From contig JAATVT010000009.1 of NCBI GenBank assembly GCA_014523685.1, forward strand, positions 1 through 15,184: a stretch of 15,184 nucleotides of DNA, read 5' to 3'. The DNA comes from Nitrososphaerales archaeon TH5893. GTDB taxonomy: Archaea; Thermoproteota; Nitrososphaeria; Nitrososphaerales; Nitrososphaeraceae. The position numbers and the translations under genes were made by a program. The notes beneath the pieces were generated by a model, which searched no databases, was not told the DNA's origin, and was given only the letters and a program-made list of their open reading frames with translations. Shown one piece after another: positions 1 through 12,119 of this stretch; within the stretch, counting starts at the first letter, position 1; every line of letters begins with the position of its first letter.

Positions 1-59
1 CTTGATGGACATCGTAGCGTACCGCTAATTCTTGACTTTTCTATTCGAATACTAATCAA
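1..59 (-). CDS. aroA: 3-phosphoshikimate 1-carboxyvinyltransferase (EPSP synthase), N-terminal fragment
   Basis: This is the first 19 codons of a gene that runs off the left edge. From a TTG at 59-57 the minus strand reads MISIRIEKS then RISGTLRCPS. That matches the opening of EPSP synthases, where a KxxISGTxxxPxSK segment precedes the phosphoshikimate/PEP site. EPSP synthase joins shikimate-3-phosphate and PEP, the step after AroK. The TTG overlaps the last codons of aroK (stop 54-52), which fits translational coupling at the end of a shikimate operon. No clear Shine-Dalgarno sequence is visible, so the exact start is uncertain. The identity rests on about 15 residues plus the expected position after aroK. 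Confidence 0.7.
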   Translation of the reverse strand, partial: MISIRIEKSRISGTLRCPS

Positions 60-909
60 CTATTACTTCGAAACTTGCCTTATTATTATTGGCTTTGGAA
101 ACAAGAGTTACACCATTATATTTATCATATATTTGTGTAATGTCATCTATGTGTTCTTTATACGTGACAGCAGCTATAGATGGACCATTTCCTGAGATAC
201 TAGCTGACAACGCTCCTCTCTGTAAGGCCGTCAAAATGGGTTTGTAGTCGCCGGATAATGCAGAGGCAGTAAGTAAGCCATTCAATTTCATGGCCTTCCA
301 ATATTGTCGAGACTTGGCTAGGTTAAATGCATCAATAAAGAGGTCTGAAAATAAGTACAGATTACGAATATTTCCGTATCTGTTATTATTCGGGAGAAAT
401 ACCACAGCGTATAAATCGGCTGGTGCCTCTTCTCGTTGGATAAGTTCATATTCGTAGTTATTAGTTACTACAATTCCTCCAAAATAACATGCGGTAGAAT
501 CATCATATGCTCCAGTTATTGTAACTCCGGCATCTAGTGAAGCACGTACTGCCAAATTCAGAATAATCTTGTCGTCTAGTTCATTTCCAACAAGGGCATT
601 ACAGGCTAGCGCGGTAGCGCTTGATACTGCGCTGGAACTTTTCAGACCCATCCCGGCTGGAATTTGTGAGTCTACCTTTATAACTAATAGGTTGTTTTTT
701 GTTATTTCTTTTGGGAGACTTCTATTAATTATATTTCTGAGCAAGGGAGTTCCTCCTTCGGGTTGAAATAGTATTCCGTTGCCCTCTTGTAATTCCACTT
801 CGACTCTTACCTTCAAAGAAATGCCTAGGGCCGATCCACAACCAGTAGCAATCGCATTAACTAACGATATTGCACCATGTACAGTTGATCGAACCTTAGT
901 ATTTAACAA
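52..909 (-). CDS. aroK: Archaeal shikimate kinase (GHMP kinase family)
   Basis: A 285-residue protein that phosphorylates shikimate at the 3-hydroxyl using ATP. It belongs to the GHMP superfamily (galactokinase, homoserine kinase, mevalonate kinase), which replaces the bacterial P-loop AroK in archaea. The diagnostic ATP-binding motif is at residues 83-98 (IPAGMGLKSSSAVSSA, the PxxxGLGSSAA-type loop). The N-terminal TVHGAISLVNAIATGCGSALG stretch is typical of the archaeal enzyme, and near the C-terminus SISGNGPSIAAV is the third GHMP motif. It starts at TTG 909, overlapping the end of aroE by 7 nt, with AGGTGA just upstream on the minus strand, so it is probably coupled to aroE. The protein is complete with no missing motif. 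Function is inferred from family plus operon position. Confidence 0.93.
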   Translation of the reverse strand: MLNTKVRSTVHGAISLVNAIATGCGSALGISLKVRVEVELQEGNGILFQPEGGTPLLRNIINRSLPKEITKNNLLVIKVDSQIPAGMGLKSSSAVSSATALACNALVGNELDDKIILNLAVRASLDAGVTITGAYDDSTACYFGGIVVTNNYEYELIQREEAPADLYAVVFLPNNNRYGNIRNLYLFSDLFIDAFNLAKSRQYWKAMKLNGLLTASALSGDYKPILTALQRGALSASISGNGPSIAAVTYKEHIDDITQIYDKYNGVTLVSKANNNKASFEVIVD

Positions 910-1754
910 ACTTCACCTACGGTTCCAAGTAACGCTTTTTTCATACCATCGATTGGAGCAGATATTCCAGTCCATATTTCAAATGACCTCGCGCCTTGAT
1001 AGAGCAGCATCTCGTATCCATATATTACTTCTGCTCCGGCCTGTTTCGCGTTTTCTAGGAGGGCGGTGTGTACAGGTTTGTACACTATATCGTAGACTAT
1101 TGCATGTTTCTTTATATTCTGATGTTCGACTACACTAGGTTCGCTGTTCATTCCAACGGTAGTTGCGTTCACAATCAGTTCTGCCGTCTTGGAAAATACG
1201 GGTATTTTTTCCCATGGTACAATCTTGCAATTCAGACCAAAGGGAACAGATACTTCCAATAAAAGTCTTGCATTTCCTTCTGAGCGGTTTGCTATGTTTA
1301 CCTCCGAAATTCCATTTTCATCTGCAAGCGCTGCCAATGCAGCCCTCGCAGCACCCCCGGCTCCGATCAGAAGTACCTTCATTCCGTCAAAATTAATCTT
1401 GCGTAAATGCAAGGGATGAATAAAACCATAGATATCTGTGTTGTATGCCTTTAGTACACCTCCCACGTTGTGTACAGTATTTACTGCGTTTGCTCTGCGT
1501 GCGCTGATGTCAAGCTCATCAAGGTATTTCATCGCTTCAACCTTGTGTGGCACCGTGATATTGAATCCAGACACCCCGATAGCGCGGAGGGATTCAATAG
1601 ATTCCTTTAGCTCATCCTTCTTGACTCTAAATGCAATATACGTGCTATTCAGTCCTAGCTTATTGAATGCAACATTTTGCATTGCCGGCGAAAGTGAGTG
1701 TTGAATAGGATCGCCAATGATACAATATGTTTTGTTATTATCTTTATTTTGCAT
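903..1754 (-). CDS. aroE: Shikimate dehydrogenase
   Basis: NADP-dependent reduction of 3-dehydroshikimate to shikimate. It begins with the substrate-binding half: YCIIGDPIQHSLSPAMQN carries the SLSP motif, NITVPHK the catalytic lysine, and AYNTDIYGF the conserved aspartate. The Rossmann half follows with the dinucleotide loop LLIGAGGAARAA, then NRS and NATTVGM, and ends with GYEMLLYQGARSFEIWTG, a C-terminal AroE signature. I chose ATG 1754 because the first beta strand (KTYCIIG) follows within eight residues. The frame is open to a TTG at 1790 preceded by AGAAGG, which would add 12 residues and give 295 aa, and this cannot be excluded. It overlaps aroD (11 nt with the chosen start) and aroK, so it is part of one transcript. 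Confidence 0.94.
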   Translation of the reverse strand: MQNKDNNKTYCIIGDPIQHSLSPAMQNVAFNKLGLNSTYIAFRVKKDELKESIESLRAIGVSGFNITVPHKVEAMKYLDELDISARRANAVNTVHNVGGVLKAYNTDIYGFIHPLHLRKINFDGMKVLLIGAGGAARAALAALADENGISEVNIANRSEGNARLLLEVSVPFGLNCKIVPWEKIPVFSKTAELIVNATTVGMNSEPSVVEHQNIKKHAIVYDIVYKPVHTALLENAKQAGAEVIYGYEMLLYQGARSFEIWTGISAPIDGMKKALLGTVGEVC

Positions 1755-2448
1755 TTGGTCTGGAATAACAAATTGAGTTAATTCTGTCAAACAACCTTCT
1801 CATGCGACTAAGGTCTAGTTGACCGGGAGCCGTATTACTGCTTACTGACGTGTATGTGAATGGCGCATTGCCTATCATAGTGCAGAGAATTCTCGAGATA
1901 ACACCAAACTCGCCCATAGCAAAGGCAATCAACTCTAATCCTGTAACACCCTCATAAAGATCAAGTACTCGCAATGCGTCATGTGTTTCCCTAGCTGTTG
2001 TCACTATTTTTGCATAATTACTATATATTTTCATTCCGTTTAGGACGTCTAGCAATCGATTTTTTGGGGGGGTGCATTTGAAGTCATGCCAAGATATAAG
2101 AATAGGTGTTTGCTGGCTTGTCAAAAAATCTGCCAAGTAATTGTTATTTTTGATGGTACGATACTCAACGTCCAGAAGCATTGGTCTAGCCATAGACAAT
2201 TTTTCCAACAATTCAACTCTTTCATTCTCGGTTCCTTTGAATTTCCCTCCTTCTCGCGCAGACCTTAATGTAAATATTGCCTTAGCCTTTGTTGACTCGG
2301 CAATTCTTATAGCATGTTCTATATCCGAAGTTTTAAGAAAATCGAAACGGATCTCTATGTAGTCTGCTCCCAAAGTAAAAGCCTTCCTTATCTGGCTTCT
2401 TAGACCATCAACACTTTTGGCCCCTATCGATCCACAAATTCTTGCCAA
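1744..2448 (-). CDS. aroD: 3-dehydroquinate dehydratase, type I
   Basis: A 234-residue class I (Schiff-base) dehydroquinase that converts 3-dehydroquinate to 3-dehydroshikimate. Family landmarks are all present: YIEIRFDF (substrate-binding Glu/Arg), FTLRSAREGG, SWHDF with the catalytic histidine, AKIVTTA with the Schiff-base lysine, and the C-terminal SSNTAPGQL segment. The start is TTG 2448, which lies about 27 nt downstream of a TATA box and has no Shine-Dalgarno, so the mRNA is probably leaderless. This makes aroD the first gene of an aroD-aroE-aroK-aroA transcript although ADH synthase and DHQ synthase lie upstream beyond a methyltransferase. A C7/A6 homopolymer near 2060-2073 sits inside the gene, but the frame is intact across it. 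Confidence 0.94.
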   Translation of the reverse strand: MARICGSIGAKSVDGLRSQIRKAFTLGADYIEIRFDFLKTSDIEHAIRIAESTKAKAIFTLRSAREGGKFKGTENERVELLEKLSMARPMLLDVEYRTIKNNNYLADFLTSQQTPILISWHDFKCTPPKNRLLDVLNGMKIYSNYAKIVTTARETHDALRVLDLYEGVTGLELIAFAMGEFGVISRILCTMIGNAPFTYTSVSSNTAPGQLDLSRMRRLFDRINSICYSRPNAK

Positions 2449-2470
2449 TCAAGGTCGTTTGTTTTTGGTC

Positions 2471-2480
2471 ATTTATAAAA
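2471..2480 (-). promoter_or_regulatory. TATA box of aroD (leaderless)
   Basis: On the minus strand this reads TTTTATAAAT. Its centre is about 27 nt before the TTG start of aroD and no ribosome-binding site intervenes, the geometry of an archaeal promoter driving a leaderless mRNA. It implies that aroDEKA can be transcribed independently of the methyltransferase and of the two upstream shikimate genes. Confidence 0.6.
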
Positions 2481-2706
2481 TACGCTCTTCTATTCTCAAA
2501 AAGTAAATCATGATTCAATTGGACTTGGTAAGAATATGTGTTTGAAATCAGTCTCATTATATGATAATGCATTATTTGTTTCATTGTCACTTCGGCCAAA
2601 AAATGTTTTTATTATTGGACGTAGGCAGATTTTTGGGAACGTAATCGGTATTTGGCCAGTAGAAATCAGCAACTGAGAAAATGAGTTTTAGCGCACTTTC
2701 TACGAC

Positions 2707-3585
2707 TTAACCCAAGTTCTTATAATGAGATGGGATTTTTTTCCACTTTGCGATTAGTGCTTCTGGTCTTATGTGAATCTTTTCCTTAGCAAGGCGACTT
2801 AAAGCCAGCCTATTGTATTGTTCCATTATTTCAATGCCAATATAGCGACGGTTAAAATTAAAGGCGACCTTAGTAGTCTGTCCGCTGCCGTTAAATGGGT
2901 CCAGTATAACATCATTTTCATAAGAATACAATTTCATTAGACGATAAGGAATTTCCTCTGGAAAAGGACAAGGGTGATCAATAAATCCAGGAGGAACTGG
3001 CGGAACATGCCAGATGGAATTTGCTATTTCTTTTGTCCATTCCTCGTGAGTAGCTGGTAATGTTTCTCCTTTATTTGTTCTTCCGCTTGTAACATCTCCT
3101 TTCCGCAACACCAAAACAAATTCATGCATGATATTTGCTCTATAGTATTTTGGATAAGGATTGATGACAAACGAGCCGTACCTGTTGGTTCCACCAGTTA
3201 CTTTGTGCCATATGATTTCTTCATGAAGACTCCAGTTACCTGCGGGTTGGACAATTTTTGAGAGTAACATATGAGGGAGTGGCAGAATAGTGCCACTGAC
3301 TACTTCGTTGCCGATTACAATACAACAATACCCACCCTCTTTAGTTGCCCGATAAATGTAATTGTTGAAAATCTCAGACATGTCATCTAGGTAAGCTGAA
3401 GTTCCTATCTTAGTTTTCCCTCTAAAGTACTGCCCCTTACCAGAGACATGCAGATTATAATCAATGGCGTTTCTGTACGGAGGAGAAGTAATGGTTAGTT
3501 GAACAGAATCAGCAGGAATTTCTAAAAGGACAATCTTGCAATCTCCTGTGATGATTTGATCTACAAAATTCCTATTAAGAAGCAT
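2707..3585 (-). CDS. Site-specific DNA methyltransferase, probable N4-cytosine type
   Basis: An AdoMet-dependent DNA methyltransferase with the beta-class motif order: catalytic motif IV TSPPY at residues 33-37 comes first, and the AdoMet-binding motif I DPFNGSG at about 229-235 comes near the C-terminus. SPPY rather than DPPY favours N4-cytosine. The segment IWHVPP...HPCPFPEEIPYRL just before motif I is typical of this group. I chose ATG 3585 (292 aa) because MLLNRNFVDQIITGDC resembles usual family N-termini and a TATA-like TATTTTAAAG lies at 3630-3621. The frame is open to ATG 3672, which would add 29 residues unlike the family. No restriction endonuclease is visible next to it, so it is solitary. 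It sits between aro genes and interrupts that cluster. The target sequence cannot be read from the protein. Confidence 0.88.
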   Translation of the reverse strand: MLLNRNFVDQIITGDCKIVLLEIPADSVQLTITSPPYRNAIDYNLHVSGKGQYFRGKTKIGTSAYLDDMSEIFNNYIYRATKEGGYCCIVIGNEVVSGTILPLPHMLLSKIVQPAGNWSLHEEIIWHKVTGGTNRYGSFVINPYPKYYRANIMHEFVLVLRKGDVTSGRTNKGETLPATHEEWTKEIANSIWHVPPVPPGFIDHPCPFPEEIPYRLMKLYSYENDVILDPFNGSGQTTKVAFNFNRRYIGIEIMEQYNRLALSRLAKEKIHIRPEALIAKWKKIPSHYKNLG

Positions 3586-3620
3586 GATCTTGAATAGGTC
3601 AGCCACGCATATTCGGCATA

Positions 3621-3630
3621 CTTTAAAATA
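3621..3630 (-). promoter_or_regulatory. Possible TATA box of the methyltransferase
   Basis: The minus strand reads TATTTTAAAG, centred about 40 nt before ATG 3585. It would give a leader of roughly 14 nt. It lies inside the longer possible reading frame and is one reason for preferring the shorter start. A weak call. Confidence 0.3.
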
Positions 3631-3686
3631 TTGAACTTTCAGATAAAAAGAGATTATCTGCCTCCCTAACATGAAACCTAGCGTTT

Positions 3687-4748
3687 TTATTTTTCTAGAA
3701 TATACTCATCAACCTCCATCCCAAAATGGCGGCCGGCTTGTCGTAACATATGGGCTAGGATTTCGTTTCCAACCTTTAGATCTGTTACCGAGACTAATGA
3801 TCCTTCCTTAGTAACTACTCGTATTGTTTCTGCGTTTTGGAGGATAATACTGCCGTGTTCACCATTTATTTCGGCCTTTATCAAACGCAATGGCCGGGTT
3901 TCAATTTTCGATCGTCCTACTACTACCTGCCGCGACACACCTTCCTTGTTAACTATTAGAACCTCGGCACCTGATTCAACTTCAGAGAGATACTTTGTTT
4001 TACCGTCAGGCAACAGCGTATAGCAGTAAACCGCTCCCGCATTTACTCTGAACGGACGGGGTGATGTGAATGATGAACCCACAGATTCGTTGTGGATAAG
4101 GAAGAGGAAGTTTGCTTTGCTACCGACTAGTAATCCTTCGCCCGTCTTGAGCATCGAGGCTGTGTCTATACATACTCTCTCTCCTGGTCCCACATCCTTA
4201 ATTTCCACTATTTTAGCAGCTTGAAGTGGAAAGTTGACATTTTCCAAAAATGATCCTAACTTACTCACCTGATTTTCATCGTTAGTTGTGAAAATCACCC
4301 CGTCGGTGCCTAATTCCAATACTGAGAACATCGTTCTTACTTCATCGACACTATTCGCAGTAGTGTAAATTTTTGTACCTGATTTATGCAGCCTGGCAAT
4401 AATATTCTCCAACGGAATTATTTTCCAATCGGTAGCCTCAATTATTACTAGATCCGGGCCTATGTCTGACGCTGTAACAATCTCATCTAAATCATCATTA
4501 CTGTACACCTTCTTTGCAAATCCGCAAGACTTATTCAGTAACTTTATTCTCCTTAATTCTTCAATCGTTTCACATATGACGATATCGGCTTGATCCGAAG
4601 GATAGATAGTCTTAAAGTCCGTTCCGACAACAAGCCTAGGATCCAGATATAAAAGTTTAACATTGCTTCTTCTCATATTTGAGAGAAAACCATTTATGTC
4701 ACTGATGGATTTCGTGGGCTTGACCACTAATTCTTTACTCTTGTGCAC
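3687..4748 (-). CDS. aroB': 3-dehydroquinate synthase II
   Basis: The archaeal type II DHQ synthase (MJ1249-like), which oxidatively deaminates and cyclises 2-amino-3,7-dideoxy-threo-hept-6-ulosonate to 3-dehydroquinate. Recognisable stretches are GTDGVIF, the VGPGERVCIDTASML block, GEGLLVGSKANFLFLIHNE, and RPFRVNAGAVYCY. The C-terminal domain (VGRSKIETRPLRLIKAE) is also characteristic. I start it at GTG 4748 (353 aa). GAGGTG lies 7 nt upstream (4761-4756), and the product then begins with the usual short HKSKELVVKP strand. The frame is open to ATG 4775, adding 9 residues. Either start overlaps the ADH synthase gene, so the two consecutive enzymes are probably translationally coupled. Confidence 0.93.
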   Translation of the reverse strand: MHKSKELVVKPTKSISDINGFLSNMRRSNVKLLYLDPRLVVGTDFKTIYPSDQADIVICETIEELRRIKLLNKSCGFAKKVYSNDDLDEIVTASDIGPDLVIIEATDWKIIPLENIIARLHKSGTKIYTTANSVDEVRTMFSVLELGTDGVIFTTNDENQVSKLGSFLENVNFPLQAAKIVEIKDVGPGERVCIDTASMLKTGEGLLVGSKANFLFLIHNESVGSSFTSPRPFRVNAGAVYCYTLLPDGKTKYLSEVESGAEVLIVNKEGVSRQVVVGRSKIETRPLRLIKAEINGEHGSIILQNAETIRVVTKEGSLVSVTDLKVGNEILAHMLRQAGRHFGMEVDEYILEK

Positions 4749-5529
4749 TACGGAGCACCTCAAATGCCTCGTCATGGCTTACACCTTCTATAATCACCCT
4801 GCGCAGCGCGCGGACGATGGAAACCGGATTTTCGTGTTGGAAAATATTGCGTCCGAATGTCACTCCCTTTGCGCCTGCCTTCATTGCACTTTCACACATT
4901 TCTAGGATTTCATAATCAGTATTAATCTTCGGACCCCCTGCTATCACTATGGGTACCGGACATGCCTTTGTGACTTTTCTAAATGAATCAATATCACCAG
5001 TGTAAACTGCTTTGACGATGTCAGCTCCAGCCTCTCCACCAATTCTTGCGGCGTGGGCTACGACCTCGACATTGTAAGGATCCTTGATATTCTCCCCTCT
5101 TGGGTACATCATTGCTACCAATGGAACATTCCACTCCGTGCATTCATCTGAAACAAGTCCCAAATCATGTAACATGTCCGGTTCTTCCTTCGCACCGATG
5201 TTGACATGAACCGAAACTGCATCGGCTCCAAGTCTTATGGATTCCCCTACTCTCCCCATCAAGACTTTCTTATTTGGGGATGGACCGAGAGAAGTACTGG
5301 CAGACATATGGGCTATCAAACCAATCCCGATTGGTCTCGGCATGGCCCTTATGATACCTTTATTAACTAAAACACAGGTTAGGCCGGCATGTTCGCATTT
5401 ATAGATCAAACTTAGGGGATCCTCTAGCCCCATAATAGGACCGTTACTTATTCCATGATCCATAGGTATACACAACATCTTTCCATCCTTCAAAATTCGA
5501 TTTAGTCGAATTTCTCTACCTATGACCAT
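4735..5529 (-). CDS. aroA': 2-amino-3,7-dideoxy-D-threo-hept-6-ulosonate (ADH) synthase
   Basis: A class I aldolase of the DhnA/archaeal fructose-bisphosphate aldolase family. ADH synthase condenses a 6-deoxy-5-ketofructose phosphate with aspartate semialdehyde, the entry to the archaeal DAHP-independent shikimate route. Visible signatures are CIPMDHGISNGP at the N-terminus, MMYPRG with the catalytic tyrosine, ADIVKAVYTGD with the Schiff-base lysine, and VIAGGPK followed by GVTFGRNIFQ, the phosphate-binding end of the barrel. The adjacent, overlapping DHQ synthase II gene distinguishes it from plain fructose-bisphosphate aldolase. I chose ATG 5529 because a TATA box is centred about 25 nt upstream, giving a leaderless mRNA. 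An in-frame ATG at 5538 would lie only about 15 nt from that box. Confidence 0.92.
   Translation of the reverse strand: MVIGREIRLNRILKDGKMLCIPMDHGISNGPIMGLEDPLSLIYKCEHAGLTCVLVNKGIIRAMPRPIGIGLIAHMSASTSLGPSPNKKVLMGRVGESIRLGADAVSVHVNIGAKEEPDMLHDLGLVSDECTEWNVPLVAMMYPRGENIKDPYNVEVVAHAARIGGEAGADIVKAVYTGDIDSFRKVTKACPVPIVIAGGPKINTDYEILEMCESAMKAGAKGVTFGRNIFQHENPVSIVRALRRVIIEGVSHDEAFEVLRSAQE
4756..4761 (-). promoter_or_regulatory. Ribosome-binding site deciding the aroB' start
   Basis: The minus strand reads GAGGTG, complementary to the end of archaeal 16S rRNA, 7 nt before GTG 4748. It lies inside the last codons of the ADH synthase gene and downstream of the alternative ATG 4775, so it supports the GTG. 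Confidence 0.6.
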
Positions 5530-5548
5530 AGGTATCATTTTTGAAACC

Positions 5549-7650: not shown

Positions 7651-8856
7651 TTGTATAGTGGCTATAAGGCCAAACTGATGCTTGATGACGGAAGTTCATA
7701 TCCAGGCATCGGATTTGGATATCCTTATGATAATGCGGGTGAGGTGGTTTTTAATACGGGTATGGTAGGGTATACAGAAACACTAACCGATCCATCATAC
7801 AGGGGGCAAATCGTATGTATAACCTATCCACTTATCGGGAATTACGGGGTCCCTAGCAAGAAGATACTGGATTCCTACGGCCTTCCAAAATACTTCGAAT
7901 CAGACAGGATTCAAGTGAAGGGACTACTGATCCATAGGTTATCGAGCGTCGCTAGTCATTGGGCCTGTATCAAAACTCTGGATCAGTGGCTTTACGAGGA
8001 AAGAATTCCGGGAATCTTTGGAATCGACACAAGAGAGCTAACGAAGAAATTGAGAGCTAGAGGAGTGATGATGGGGGCAGTATCTGTATCCGAAAATCGG
8101 TTAACTGATGACACGCGATTATCAGAGCTGATGGATATCGAAAGGTATGAGGGCAGAAATTTTATGGCCGAGGTATCGGTGCGTAATGCTCGTCAGTATG
8201 GAGATATAATGGATAACTGCATTGTGCTTTTAGATACTGGAACAAAATATAGCATAATACGAAACATCATAAAGTCTGGATATAGAGCCGTTATACTACC
8301 TTGGGACTCTCCTATAGAGGAGATTATGAAATATGAACCTGCAGGTGTTATAATTAGCAACGGACCGGGGGATCCCACACGTTGTCCAGAGACAATTAAG
8401 ACTGCAGCCAAGTTGATCGATAGCTCCACTCCAACACTTGGCATATGTCTGGGAAATCAGATATTGGCTCTTGCCGCGGGCGCTAAAACTTATAAATTGA
8501 AATTTGGGCATAGGGCACAAAATAAACCTTGTAAGGATTTAAACAATGGTCAAACCTATATCACATCCCAGAATCACGGGTATGGAATTGACCCGGAGAG
8601 CCTGAAAGGCAGTGGATTTCGAGAATGGTTTTCAAATATTGACGATACTACTGTAGAAGGTATAGAACATGAAAAAAAACCAATTATAGCAGTTCAATTT
8701 CATCCCGAGGCTTCTCCAGGACCTTACGACTGCACATTTGTGTTTGATAGGTTTAAGAAATTGATAGAGAACAGCGACAAATATGTAGAGAAAGATGGTC
8801 TGAAACAAACAAATAATGATGGCAAATTGTACGGAGGAAAAATTGCCCAAGCATGA
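7651..8856 (+). CDS. carA: Carbamoyl-phosphate synthase small subunit (glutaminase)
   Basis: A 401-residue glutamine amidotransferase subunit that releases ammonia from glutamine and channels it to CarB to make carbamoyl phosphate for pyrimidines and arginine. The N-terminal CPSase domain (GYKAKLMLDDG, GEVVFNTGMVGYTETLTDPS) is followed by the class I amidotransferase domain. That holds the GPGDP oxyanion loop, the nucleophile elbow GICLGNQ (catalytic Cys) and QFHPEASPGP carrying the catalytic His and Glu. It starts at TTG 7651, where the product begins YSGYKAKL as expected. The last ~25 residues form a hydrophilic tail. Its 3' end encodes the ribosome-binding site (GGAGG 8833-8837) and the TTG start of carB, which overlaps it by 14 nt. 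Confidence 0.96.
   Translation: MYSGYKAKLMLDDGSSYPGIGFGYPYDNAGEVVFNTGMVGYTETLTDPSYRGQIVCITYPLIGNYGVPSKKILDSYGLPKYFESDRIQVKGLLIHRLSSVASHWACIKTLDQWLYEERIPGIFGIDTRELTKKLRARGVMMGAVSVSENRLTDDTRLSELMDIERYEGRNFMAEVSVRNARQYGDIMDNCIVLLDTGTKYSIIRNIIKSGYRAVILPWDSPIEEIMKYEPAGVIISNGPGDPTRCPETIKTAAKLIDSSTPTLGICLGNQILALAAGAKTYKLKFGHRAQNKPCKDLNNGQTYITSQNHGYGIDPESLKGSGFREWFSNIDDTTVEGIEHEKKPIIAVQFHPEASPGPYDCTFVFDRFKKLIENSDKYVEKDGLKQTNNDGKLYGGKIAQA
8833..8837 (+). promoter_or_regulatory. Ribosome-binding site that fixes the carB start
   Basis: GGAGG, 5 nt before TTG 8843. It sits inside carA and points to a start in the reading frame that encodes the conserved CarB N-terminus. The frame open at 8874 has no such site. 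Confidence 0.75.
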
Positions 8857-11800
8857 TACAATAAGAAAAGTTCTTGTTATTGGAAGCGGCGCGATTAAGA
8901 TCGGAGAAGCGGGCGAAAGTCATTAAGTCTGACCGTCAATTTGACTACTCCGGTTCACAGTGCCTTAAAGCATTAAGAGAAGATAATGTAAGAAGCGTTC
9001 TAATTAATCCCAACATTGCTACAATCCAAACCGACAGCAGATTTGCCGATAGAGTGTACATACTGCCTATCAATGCGATGTATGTTCAAAAGGTTATAGA
9101 AAAAGAGAGACCAGATTCTATCATGTTGAGTTTCGGAGGACAGACCGCACTCAACTGTGGAGTGTCTCTGGAGGGAGAAGGGATCCTAGGTAAATATGGA
9201 ATAAGGGTCCTGGGTACACAAATAGATAGCATCAGAATTACAGAGGACAGGAAGCTATTCAAGGAGGCAATGCAGAAAAGTGACGTCCCTGTTCTGCCTA
9301 GTGCTCCGGCGTATTCTCTAACAGAGGCCAGGGAAATTGCTAAGGAAATAGGATTTCCAGTTATTATTCGTGTCGCCTACACCCTTGGGGGAAAAGGCGG
9401 TGGCGTCGCCTACAATGAATACGAATTAGAGGAAATTGTGCAGCGTGGATTGACCCTCAGTGTAGTCCGTCAGGTCTTAGTTGAAAAATATGTTGGAAGC
9501 TGGAAGCAGATCGAGTACGAAATAATGCGTGACAGCCATGGAAATAATGCAGTTGTTTGCAATATGGAAAATGTCTTAGCAATGCGAGTTCATACAGGAG
9601 ATAACATTGTAGTTACGCCATCTCAAACTCTCAACAATATCGAATATCATAAACTCCGCTCTGCGGCACAGAGGGCTGCTTCTCAGTGTAATATAATCGG
9701 AGAATGTAATATTCAGTTTGGTCTAGATCCGACTTCTGAAAAATATTGTGCCATTGAAATCAATGCAAGACTTTCGAGATCATCTGCTTTAGCTAGTAAA
9801 GCTACTGGATACCCACTTGCATACATGGCTGCAAAGATTGGTCTTGGGTATGCTTTACCAGAGCTGGTTAACACAATAACCAAAGTTACTACTGCTTGCT
9901 TTGAGCCCTCTCTTGATTATATTACTTTGAAAATGCCCCGATGGGATTTTCAGAAATTTGAGCGTGTTAAGCGGAGGCTAGGGAGTACAATGAAATCAGT
10001 GGGAGAGGTAATGGCTATTGGCCGAAATTTTGAAGAGGTAATTCAGAAGGCAATTAGAATGTGCGATATAGATAAGGATGGATTAACGTCATGTCTGGAC
10101 AACAATGAAATTTACCCCCCTGATGAAATTGAAAAAATTGAACAATCCCTTCTTCAACCTGATGATGAAATAATGTTTACGGTTGTTCGAGCATTGAGAG
10201 CAGGAATTGATATTCATAGAATAAACCAGTTATCCCACATTGATCCATGGTTCCTTCTATGTATAAATAATATCGTAAAAATGGAAAATCGGTTACGCAC
10301 TGAAGCTTTTGATGAATCCTTGATTTTAGAGGCAAAAAAAACAGGTTTCTCTGATAAACAAATTGCAAGTTGTATGAACATTGCTGAGATGCAGGTAAGA
10401 AGCTTGAGAGACAAATTTGGAATAAGACCAGTGATTAAGCAGATAGATACACTTGCTGCTGAATGGCCCGCGAAAACTAATTATCTCTACATGACCTATG
10501 ACGGCGATGGTGACGATGTCGAATTCGACAAAGTGGAAAAGAGTACGATAGTTCTTGGGGCCGGTCCTTATAGGATAGGAAGCAGCGTGGAATTTGATTG
10601 GGCTACCGTTAACATGGTATGGAGCTTAAAAGAAAATGGGGTCGAGAATGTATCGGTAATTAATTGTAACCCAGAAACTGTTTCAACTGATTATGATGTC
10701 TCGGATCGGCTCTATTTTGAAGAGTTAACTTTTGAGCGGGTGCTGGATATATACGAAAGGGAGAAGGCATGCGGGATTGTTACGTGTGTTGGAGGACAGG
10801 TAGCAAATAATCTAACGCCTAAATTATCAAAAGCAAAAGTAAAAATCGTTGGAACGAGTAGCGAAGATGTAGATAGGGCAGAAGATCGTGTTAAATTTGG
10901 AAAACTATTAGATACATTAAATATCAAGCAGCCCGCATGGAAAAGATTTTCGGATGTAACAGAAGCAAAGAAATTTGCCAAAAGAGTAGGATATCCGGTT
11001 CTGGTTAGACCTTCGTATGTTCTTAGTGGCGCAGCTATGAAGGTTGTCTGGGCAGAGCACCAATTCGAACAGTTCTTGACTACTGCAACAAGTATTAGCA
11101 CCGAACATCCGGTTGTAATAAGCAAATTCATTCAAGATGCGGCGGAAGTAGAAGTAGATGCTGTGTCAGGAAAGAAGACTGTCATAATCGGATCAATCAT
11201 AGAACACATAGACAATGCTGGGATTCATTCTGGTGACGCGATAATGTGTATTCCTCCGTGGAGGCAAGACAGAAAGACTCTGGAAACTATTAAAGAATAT
11301 TCGTTTAAAATAGGACAGGCCCTCAATATCGAAGGACCATACAACATTCAATATTTGGTGAAGAATGAAGAAGTATTTGTCATCGAAGCCAATGTACGAG
11401 CTTCAAGATCCATGCCTTTTGTTTCAAAGTTTATCGAAGCTAACTTGATAGGCCTCTCAGCAAGAGCTATGATGGGCAGAGATCTTCCTGATTCCGCCAA
11501 AGACTTATGGTGGAAGACCACAGGTTTTGGGATTAAAGTTCCCCAATTTTCGTTCATGCAGTTAGAAGGTGCAGATATTGTACTCGGGGTCGAGATGCAT
11601 TCTACTGGAGAGGTCGCCTGCTTTGGAAACAGCTTTTATGACGCCCTTTCTAAGGCCTATTTGGCAGCAGGATACTCGCTTCCACAGGCGGGATCGGCAC
11701 TAATCAGTGTTGGAGGACAGAAAAATAAGGTTAGGCTTCGCTATCTAATTTCTCTCATATCATCGTTAGGATATCAAATTATGGCAACCGAACACACCGC

Positions 11801-12119
11801 CGAATTCTTAGAATCAAGCCTTGTAAGACCAGTGCAAAAAGTCTACAAAATCAGCGAACCTGACAGAAAACCCAACATTGCCGACTTATTATTCGAACGG
11901 AAAATTGACTTTATAATTAATATCCCTTCTACGTCGACAATCGAAAAGTATGTTGGAATGCTTTATGACGAGTATTTGATAAGGAGAAAGGCTGTCGAAA
12001 TGGGTGTCCCTGTATTAACTACTATAGAAGGTGCAACCTCTTTTGCAAAAACACTTGAGTGGCTTGCTTCGTCACAACCAACAATAGACTACCTAAAACC
12101 ATATAAAAGACTAGGATGA
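8843..12119 (+). CDS. carB: Carbamoyl-phosphate synthase large subunit, interrupted by a 22-nt intron-like insertion
   Basis: The synthetase subunit uses two ATP to make carbamoyl phosphate from bicarbonate and ammonia. The first exon (8843-8917) encodes MPKHDTIRKVLVIGS then GAIKIGEAGE, the classic CarB opening. The second (8940-12119) continues FDYSGSQCLKAL. Joined, the product is 1084 aa, normal for CarB. The order is: first ATP-grasp half (glycine loop TLGGKGGGVAYN), oligomerisation region around residues 400-550, second half opening TIVLGAGPYRIGSSVEFDW, and a C-terminal allosteric MGS-like domain ending before the stop at 12117. Without removal of 8918-8939 the frame ends at TAA 8924 after 27 codons. 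The only long uninterrupted frame starts at TTG 8874 and would replace the conserved N-terminus with an unrelated sequence. The 3' end overlaps the convergent phosphoesterase gene by 9 nt. Identity is certain; the splicing is inferred. Confidence 0.93.
8918..8939 (+). other. Candidate bulge-helix-bulge mini-intron in carB mRNA (22 nt)
   Basis: These 22 nt lie exactly between GAA (Glu25) and TTT (Phe26) in the invariant EFDYSG motif and contain an in-frame TAA (8924-8926). They fold as an archaeal tRNA-endonuclease substrate. Central helix H is GGCG 8912-8915 with CGTC 8934-8937 (one G-U). The 5' bulge is A8916 A8917|A8918. The inner stem is GTCA 8919-8922 with TGAC 8930-8933 around a 7-nt loop. 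The 3' side has A8938 A8939|T8940. Cutting after the second base of each bulge removes exactly 8918-8939 and restores the frame. The outer helix is not adjacent: ATCGGAG 8900-8906 pairs with CTCCGGT 8948-8954 beyond an internal loop, so the motif is a relaxed form. Splicing itself is inferred. Confidence 0.8.

Follow-up and report, generated by a model that had tools for sequence, protein, structure and literature searches.

How is the large subunit of carbamoyl-phosphate synthase (CarB) made from a gene whose reading frame breaks off after 25 codons and resumes in another frame 22 nt further on? The question is raised by a 15,184-nt stretch of DNA from Nitrososphaerales archaeon TH5893, which we refer to as the window. 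A sequence-only reading of the window had proposed that the 22 nt form a bulge-helix-bulge (BHB) intron. Our comparative analysis of the locus indicates that carB very probably does carry a 22-nt BHB-type archaeal pre-mRNA intron, one that would be spliced by the tRNA endonuclease.

The carAB locus and the position of the insert

The locus comprises the following features.

7651..8856, + strand: carA, small subunit of carbamoyl-phosphate synthase (CPSase) (ORF; PF00988 and PF00117)
8833..8837, + strand: GGAGG, likely ribosome-binding site of carB (read from the sequence)
8843..8917, + strand: carB exon 1, 25 codons with a TTG start (translation; in intron-bearing relatives, amino acids conserved and third positions freer)
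8918..8939, + strand: putative 22-nt BHB intron with an in-frame TAA at 8924-8926 (sequence, model matches, junction comparison)
8940..12119, + strand: carB exon 2, 1059 codons plus stop (ORF and domain match; CPSase large subunit intact from Phe26)

The TTG at 8843, with GGAGG ahead of it at 8833-8837, opens LPKHDTIRKVLVIGSGAIKIGEAGE (8843-8917). Continued past 8917, the exon-1 frame reads Ser, His and then a stop, the TAA at 8924-8926; FDYSGSQCLKAL starts at 8940 in a different frame, which remains open to a stop ending at 12119. When 8918-8939 are deleted, GAA and TTT are joined to give GEAGE/FDYSG. Direct reading, the ORFs and translation agree to the base with the sequence-only reading on the start, the stop, the reopening at 8940 and the canonical GEFDYSG that is obtained by removing exactly these 22 nt. 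Owing to AA repeats, cuts moved 1 or 2 bases to the left would give an identical product.

The end of carA and the start of carB overlap by 14 nt (8843-8856), and the intron lies ~60 nt past the carA stop. Translation of the two genes is probably coupled at this overlap, in which case splicing would compete with ribosomes.

Predicted fold at the junction

The predicted fold of the window's junction consists of these elements.

8899..8911, + strand: outer exon helix, 5' strand, with 8907 unpaired (predicted fold; helix 1 of alignment A1, 97.2% of cells paired)
8912..8915, + strand: central 4-bp helix, exon strand GGCG (predicted fold, pair counts, covariation analysis)
8916..8918, + strand: 5' bulge AA/A, predicted cut 8917/8918 (predicted fold, pair counts)
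8919..8922, + strand: inner intron stem, 5' strand GUCA (covariation)
8930..8933, + strand: inner intron stem, 3' strand UGAC (covariation)
8934..8937, + strand: central helix, intron strand CGUC (predicted fold, pair counts, covariation analysis)
8938..8940, + strand: 3' bulge AA/U, predicted cut 8939/8940, with 8941 unpaired too (predicted fold, pair counts)
8942..8955, + strand: outer exon helix, 3' strand, with 8944 and 8947 unpaired (predicted fold; helix 1 of A1)

All four pairs of the central helix GGCG/CGUC form, one of them a G-U pair, and the inner stem (8919-8922 with 8930-8933) closes a 7-nt loop. The 3' unpaired stretch of the predicted fold is 4 nt long (8938-8941). This is the arrangement of central helix, AA/A bulge, inner stem with 7-nt loop and AA/U bulge that the sequence-only reading had described, to which we add a helix between the exons outside the motif (8899-8911 with 8942-8955) that it had missed. 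The energy of the single-sequence fold is weak (z = -1.42, with 19 of 200 shuffles equally good) and would be too weak as proof by itself; the comparative evidence is decisive. A search of the window returned no Rfam match at the gathering threshold, and a tRNA scan of the window was also empty. We rejected a group I or group II intron, given the absence of such a match and a length of 20-40 nt, which is too short.

Distribution of the insert among relatives

We collected CarB loci, 48 of them from named genome contigs, together with those of 60 relatives and of the window's own genome, and a script took the insert length as the spacing between the GEAGE codons and the FDYSG codons. To judge from the nearest named relatives, the window's genome is of Nitrososphaeraceae type. 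An insert was found at the identical site in Nitrosocosmicus, Nitrosopumilaceae and Cenarchaeum records and in several further genera, and GAR and TTY are joined directly, with no insert, in other Nitrosopumilus bins, in Nitrosocaldus and in some further lineages.

A covariance model of the exon-intron-exon region (R1), built from 45 sequences, was then run on 400 genomes sampled from a larger set of the class and matched 231 of them at E<=0.01. Of these matches, 27 are weak (E>1e-6) and the others strong (E<=1.1e-9); all 18 of the weak matches that we re-examined span 36 bases, i.e., they are intronless junctions. The strong matches cover 204 of the 400 genomes, single-contig genomes included, and these 204 are counted here as intron-bearing, most of them by R1 score alone. 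In the family of the window (f1), 57 genomes match R1 and, among the misses listed, at least 5 do not: G180 has a complete carB with no intron, G279 has only the 3' part of carB, and G014, G282 and G369 gave no CarB match at E<=1e-30. In a sample of the phylum, R1 matched 44 of 300 genomes, with 30 strong matches, all within the window's order. Of the 14 weaker matches, 13 cover 36 bases; the last one (G602; 96 bases, E 0.0045) is doubtful and was taken as a chance match, no CarB having been found in that genome at E<=1e-30. A carB intron of 23 nt was also seen in a genome (G087) of a different order of the same class.

Two close relatives, with end branches of 0 and 0.012 in the tree of CarB proteins (L055 of genome G025 and L057 of genome G031), differ in intron length at this site, 33 versus 22 nt, which points to fast turnover of the intron loop. 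In G001, a relative of the same genus, and in L045, a near relative, carB is truncated ahead of the junction, and both are therefore uninformative on the intron. Collectively, the carB insert is lineage-wide and not an oddity of one genome. The sequence-only reading had suggested an alignment with carB of related archaea; in that comparison, the insert is absent from 51 junctions, and in the other 81 its sequence varies and the fold is kept.

Conservation and covariation of the fold

The comparison comprised 132 distinct junctions, 81 intron-bearing and 51 intronless. Loci without a junction found by the script and rows with less than 96 nt before the junction or less than 60 nt after it were left out, among them L068, L101 and L133, which lie at contig ends with the intron visible, and five loci with a varying exon-1 motif were added by hand. 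The 81 inserts are 20-40 nt long, most often 21, 22 or 26 nt, and their lengths modulo 3 are 0, 1 and 2 in 30, 32 and 19 cases, respectively.

With the borders that restore the frame, at least 7 of the 8 BHB pairs form in all 81 junctions, and all 8 form in 60. Among 162,000 shuffled introns, the same levels were reached by 0.41% and 0.028%, respectively, rates that are not probabilities and, as with the shuffles of A1 below, overstate significance, since shuffling ignores relatedness. The second rate is of the same order as the ~0.04% chance that the sequence-only reading had estimated for both helices. The central helix has four pairs in 65 of the 81 junctions and three in the other 16, where the outermost central pair is missing and the motif is thus relaxed. 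The 81 junctions contain 65 distinct introns and 34 inner-stem combinations. Furthermore, a cut in the BHB register (behind the second of the three bulge bases) yields GEAGEFDYSG at every one of the 81 junctions, and at 18 of them no other register does so.

In alignment A1 (45 sequences, 43 of them distinct), 96.3% of the cells are paired, compared with 19-49% when the structure is slid along the alignment. A1 has 42 double-change cells versus 12.2 in shuffles, and four of the five inner pairs show double changes; two of five covariation measures are not above the shuffles, namely, the number of pairs with double changes (reached in 140 of 500 shuffles) and the number of pair types (reached in 297 of 500). 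The same helices were recovered independently by RNAalifold, except that it paired column 13 with column 61. In one of the 81 junctions (L154), the exon has GGT for GGC and the intron has A for G opposite, a compensating substitution that spans the 5' splice site; in one further row, a T faces G. A chance fold was rejected on the grounds of recurrence in relatives and covariation, and the alignments point to selection on the fold of the carB insert.

Synonymous constraint in the exon codons

The exon halves of the fold also show codon constraint. At the six exon-1 codons that belong to the fold, third-position entropy is 0.33, 0.29, 0.47, 1.44 (GCN), 0.17 and 0.61 bits in intron-bearing genes and 1.65, 1.93, 0.85, 1.98, 1.91 and 1.0 bits in intronless ones, two sets that differ in taxonomic make-up. 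The exon-2 codons GAY, TAY and TCN follow the same pattern (0.47, 0.38 and 1.0 versus 1.0, 0.98 and 1.73 bits), and the two sets are similar at codons 11 to 15 upstream of the junction (0.99-1.97 versus 0.99-1.95 bits). Codons 9 and 10 upstream of the junction, which are not part of the named fold, likewise have lower entropy in intron-bearing genes (0.93 versus 1.82 and 1.32 versus 1.95 bits), and the codon effect may therefore partly reflect relatedness within the sample or an extension of the fold that was not modelled.

Frame logic and competing explanations

Retention of the insert breaks the frame in all 81 intron-bearing junctions; the first in-frame stop after exon 1 lies inside the intron in 67 of them and in exon 2 in the other 14. 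In the window, unspliced mRNA yields just a 27-residue dead-end peptide, so that CarB would depend on splicing.

Ribosomes might instead hop over the insert, guided by its hairpin, with no splicing at all. A compact hairpin directly behind the last exon-1 codon and the many inserts with a stop codon are what such programmed bypassing would lead one to expect. Bypassing as in T4 gene 60, however, needs matched take-off and landing codons, and the last triplet of the insert is GAA or GAG in none of the 81 cases, leaving the ribosome without a landing codon. Nor does a hop account for the pairing of the 3' end of the intron with exon 1, for bulges that sit exactly at the borders, or for constrained exon-2 codons that pair with exon 1. 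The compensating change in L154 is predicted by a fold that exon and intron share and not by bypassing or by decay of the gene, and we regard bypassing as highly improbable. We consider it still harder to believe that translation of CarB starts inside or behind the insert, so that the protein does not include the upstream reading. The window does have a TTG at 8874 in frame with exon 2, and database records might seem to agree with an internal start: GEAGEFDYSG occurs in none of the best 120 of 7993 scored CarB proteins (one of which is the window's ORF), 101 having other residues before FDYSG and 19 starting further in. However, only 9 of the 81 intron-bearing genes, one of them in the window, have an ATG, GTG or TTG downstream of the last stop from which exon 2 could be read in frame; in the remaining 72, internal initiation therefore cannot make the conserved FDYSG end. 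Exon 1, moreover, is kept as protein in intron-bearing genes, with freer third positions. Five of the database proteins (P0005-P0009; 89-90% identity) have annotated starts with a frame-shifted exon-1 signature, EKRAKV...DRQFDYSG, and the absence of the spliced N-terminus leads us to regard the CarB starts as misannotated in all of those 120.

The probability of an assembly error or a decaying carB copy is close to nil. A functional carB elsewhere, which the sequence-only reading had named as a finding that would speak against an intron, could be missing from a genome that is a fragmented bin of 258 contigs, 79% complete, but this assembly contains no second CarB, only two weak relatives with 27% and 22% identity. 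In addition, exon 2 is open for all of its 1059 codons, and the insert site is common to the 204 intron-bearing genomes, which include single-contig ones.

Splicing machinery and proposed mechanism

The window's genome encodes two PF01974 splicing-endonuclease subunits, on contigs C47 and C75. The C47 protein is nearest to PDB chain 3p1z_B (E 1.5e-41), presumably from Aeropyrum pernix, with alignment across a region containing Tyr, His and Lys, which we take to be the catalytic residues. The C75 protein is a weaker PF01974 match, with no His at the aligned position in the alignments. Two PF01974 matches were found in 18 of the 21 genomes searched (the window's genome included), one in G005 and in G010, and none in G043. 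By homology, the endonuclease would be of the alpha2beta2 type, able to cut relaxed motifs outside tRNA. A review assigns alpha2beta2 splicing endonucleases to Thaumarchaeota (PMC4090602), and a study of the cbf5 intron connects crenarchaeal enzymes of the alpha2beta2 type with relaxed motifs in RNAs other than tRNA (PMC2738675). The genome of the window also has two RtcB-family matches (G000:C12:6627-7934 and G000:C217:3-1376), and by analogy RtcB is presumably the exon ligase.

In the mechanism that we propose, the folded carAB transcript would have the GGCG of exon 1 base-paired to the 3' portion of the intron, a hairpin formed by the intron itself and, outside it, a helix between the two exons. 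The two-subunit endonuclease (alpha2beta2-type) would then cut each bulge behind its second base, at 8917/8918 and 8939/8940, and the exons would be joined by a ligase (presumably RtcB), which would bring Glu25 next to Phe26. The site, the fold, the codon constraint, the precisely intronless relatives and the presence of endonuclease and ligase genes all fit the earlier suggestion of a tRNA-type intron in an essential metabolic mRNA.

Probable origin and loss of the intron

A FastTree phylogeny was built from 130 CarB rows, 80 with and 50 without the intron, after rows shorter than 420 residues and duplicates had been dropped. Intron presence changes at least 9 times on this tree, in which 30 of the 127 inner branches are open. 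Intronless rows are nested within intron-bearing groups, as is G180 (local support 95). Two intronless loci look as if they had lost the intron precisely and recently: L159 (G398) keeps all 6 of 6 intron-type codon marks, and L169 (G288) keeps 4 of 6. The intron is thus probably old in Nitrososphaeria, to judge from its placement on the tree, and has probably been lost precisely on more than one occasion; independent gains or gene transfer may be alternatives. Its persistence is most likely a matter of being tolerated and difficult to lose, not of a special task.

A regulatory role appears unlikely to us. The intron would then act as a gate that ties carbamoyl phosphate synthesis, and with it pyrimidines and arginine, to splicing capacity or to competition of the ribosome with the endonuclease 25 codons into the gene, behind the carA stop, and ammonia-oxidising archaea might have several such mRNA introns that have gone undetected.

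Relation to known archaeal introns

The closest known case is the intron in the cbf5 pre-mRNA, reportedly described by Watanabe in 2002. Yokobori 2009 (PMC2738675) describes the cbf5 intron of Desulfurococcales and Sulfolobales as a short BHB intron in an open frame (16-44 bp), with a mostly unconventional motif, a cut predicted between the second and third bulge bases, a hetero-oligomeric endonuclease, ancestral gain with independent losses, and a record of being overlooked or misread by annotators, in all of which the carB intron resembles it. The size range given there means that 22 nt is not exceptional, and we do not uphold the earlier claim that the carB intron is among the smallest in a protein gene. 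The two differ in host gene (carbamoyl-phosphate synthase rather than a pseudouridine synthase), site and lineage, and cbf5 splicing is backed by cDNA in several species, whereas the carB intron is recognized here from genome sequence. A table in that paper gives an intron size of 0 for cbf5 of Cenarchaeum and Nitrosopumilus (PMC2738675). Membership in the cbf5 intron family was rejected, the host gene being carB by domain matches.

Other precedents are more distant. According to PMC7714728, the 5' UTR of HVO_1309 in Haloferax volcanii is likewise an mRNA site cut by the splicing endonuclease at a BHB, but that site lies in the 5' UTR and the carB intron within a reading frame. The 12-bp inserts of a rudivirus and inserts of Sulfolobus are also short, located in protein genes and thought to be introns; PMC2738675 gives them as predicted, with splicing not demonstrated by 2009. 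Archaeal tRNA introns (11-175 nt in the same source) are similar in motif, size range and enzymes, whereas the host RNA of the carB intron is an mRNA, and the exon halves that pair also encode a conserved peptide. The same paper on HVO_1309 (PMC7714728) states that the cbf5 mRNA was the only additional archaeal BHB intron reported up to 2020. We found no report of a carB intron in the open-licence literature that we searched, in line with the sequence-only reading, which knew of none; an earlier mention is possible.

The carB intron is of a very rare known type and comes with unusually rich comparative evidence. If confirmed, it would be the second conserved BHB intron in an mRNA, in a central metabolic gene of lineages that include ammonia oxidisers, and archaeal protein-gene introns would not be just a crenarchaeal curiosity. 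The carB introns would also constitute a large natural data set on presence, absence and exon constraint, and competition between splicing and coupled translation would become testable in culture.

Survey for further introns and additional observations

Two related complete genomes were compared in search of further introns, with 400 kb taken from each and 230.9 kb aligned. A filter without a fold test reduced 859 frame-changing indels to 229 candidate places, too many to be of use, and a filter with a loose BHB test reduced 1444 indels to 50 candidate pairs. Both recovered the carB intron (33 versus 22 nt). Six G-C pairs in both genomes are found only in carB registers, a cut-off seen after the fact.

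In ten f1 genomes (G003, G008, G010, G016, G017, G022, G023, G028, G029 and G035), CarB aligns in 2-3 pieces near residue 385-397, and the open frames are 1124-1191 aa long, which suggests a lineage-specific in-frame insertion between CarB domains. Elsewhere in the window, positions 52-5538 on the minus strand hold an apparent shikimate-pathway cluster, in which 3-dehydroquinate synthase II matched PF01959 and the other gene names are ones that we assumed from the appearance of the ORFs. At 2707-3672, a gene for a DNA methylase (PF01555) interrupts this apparent cluster.
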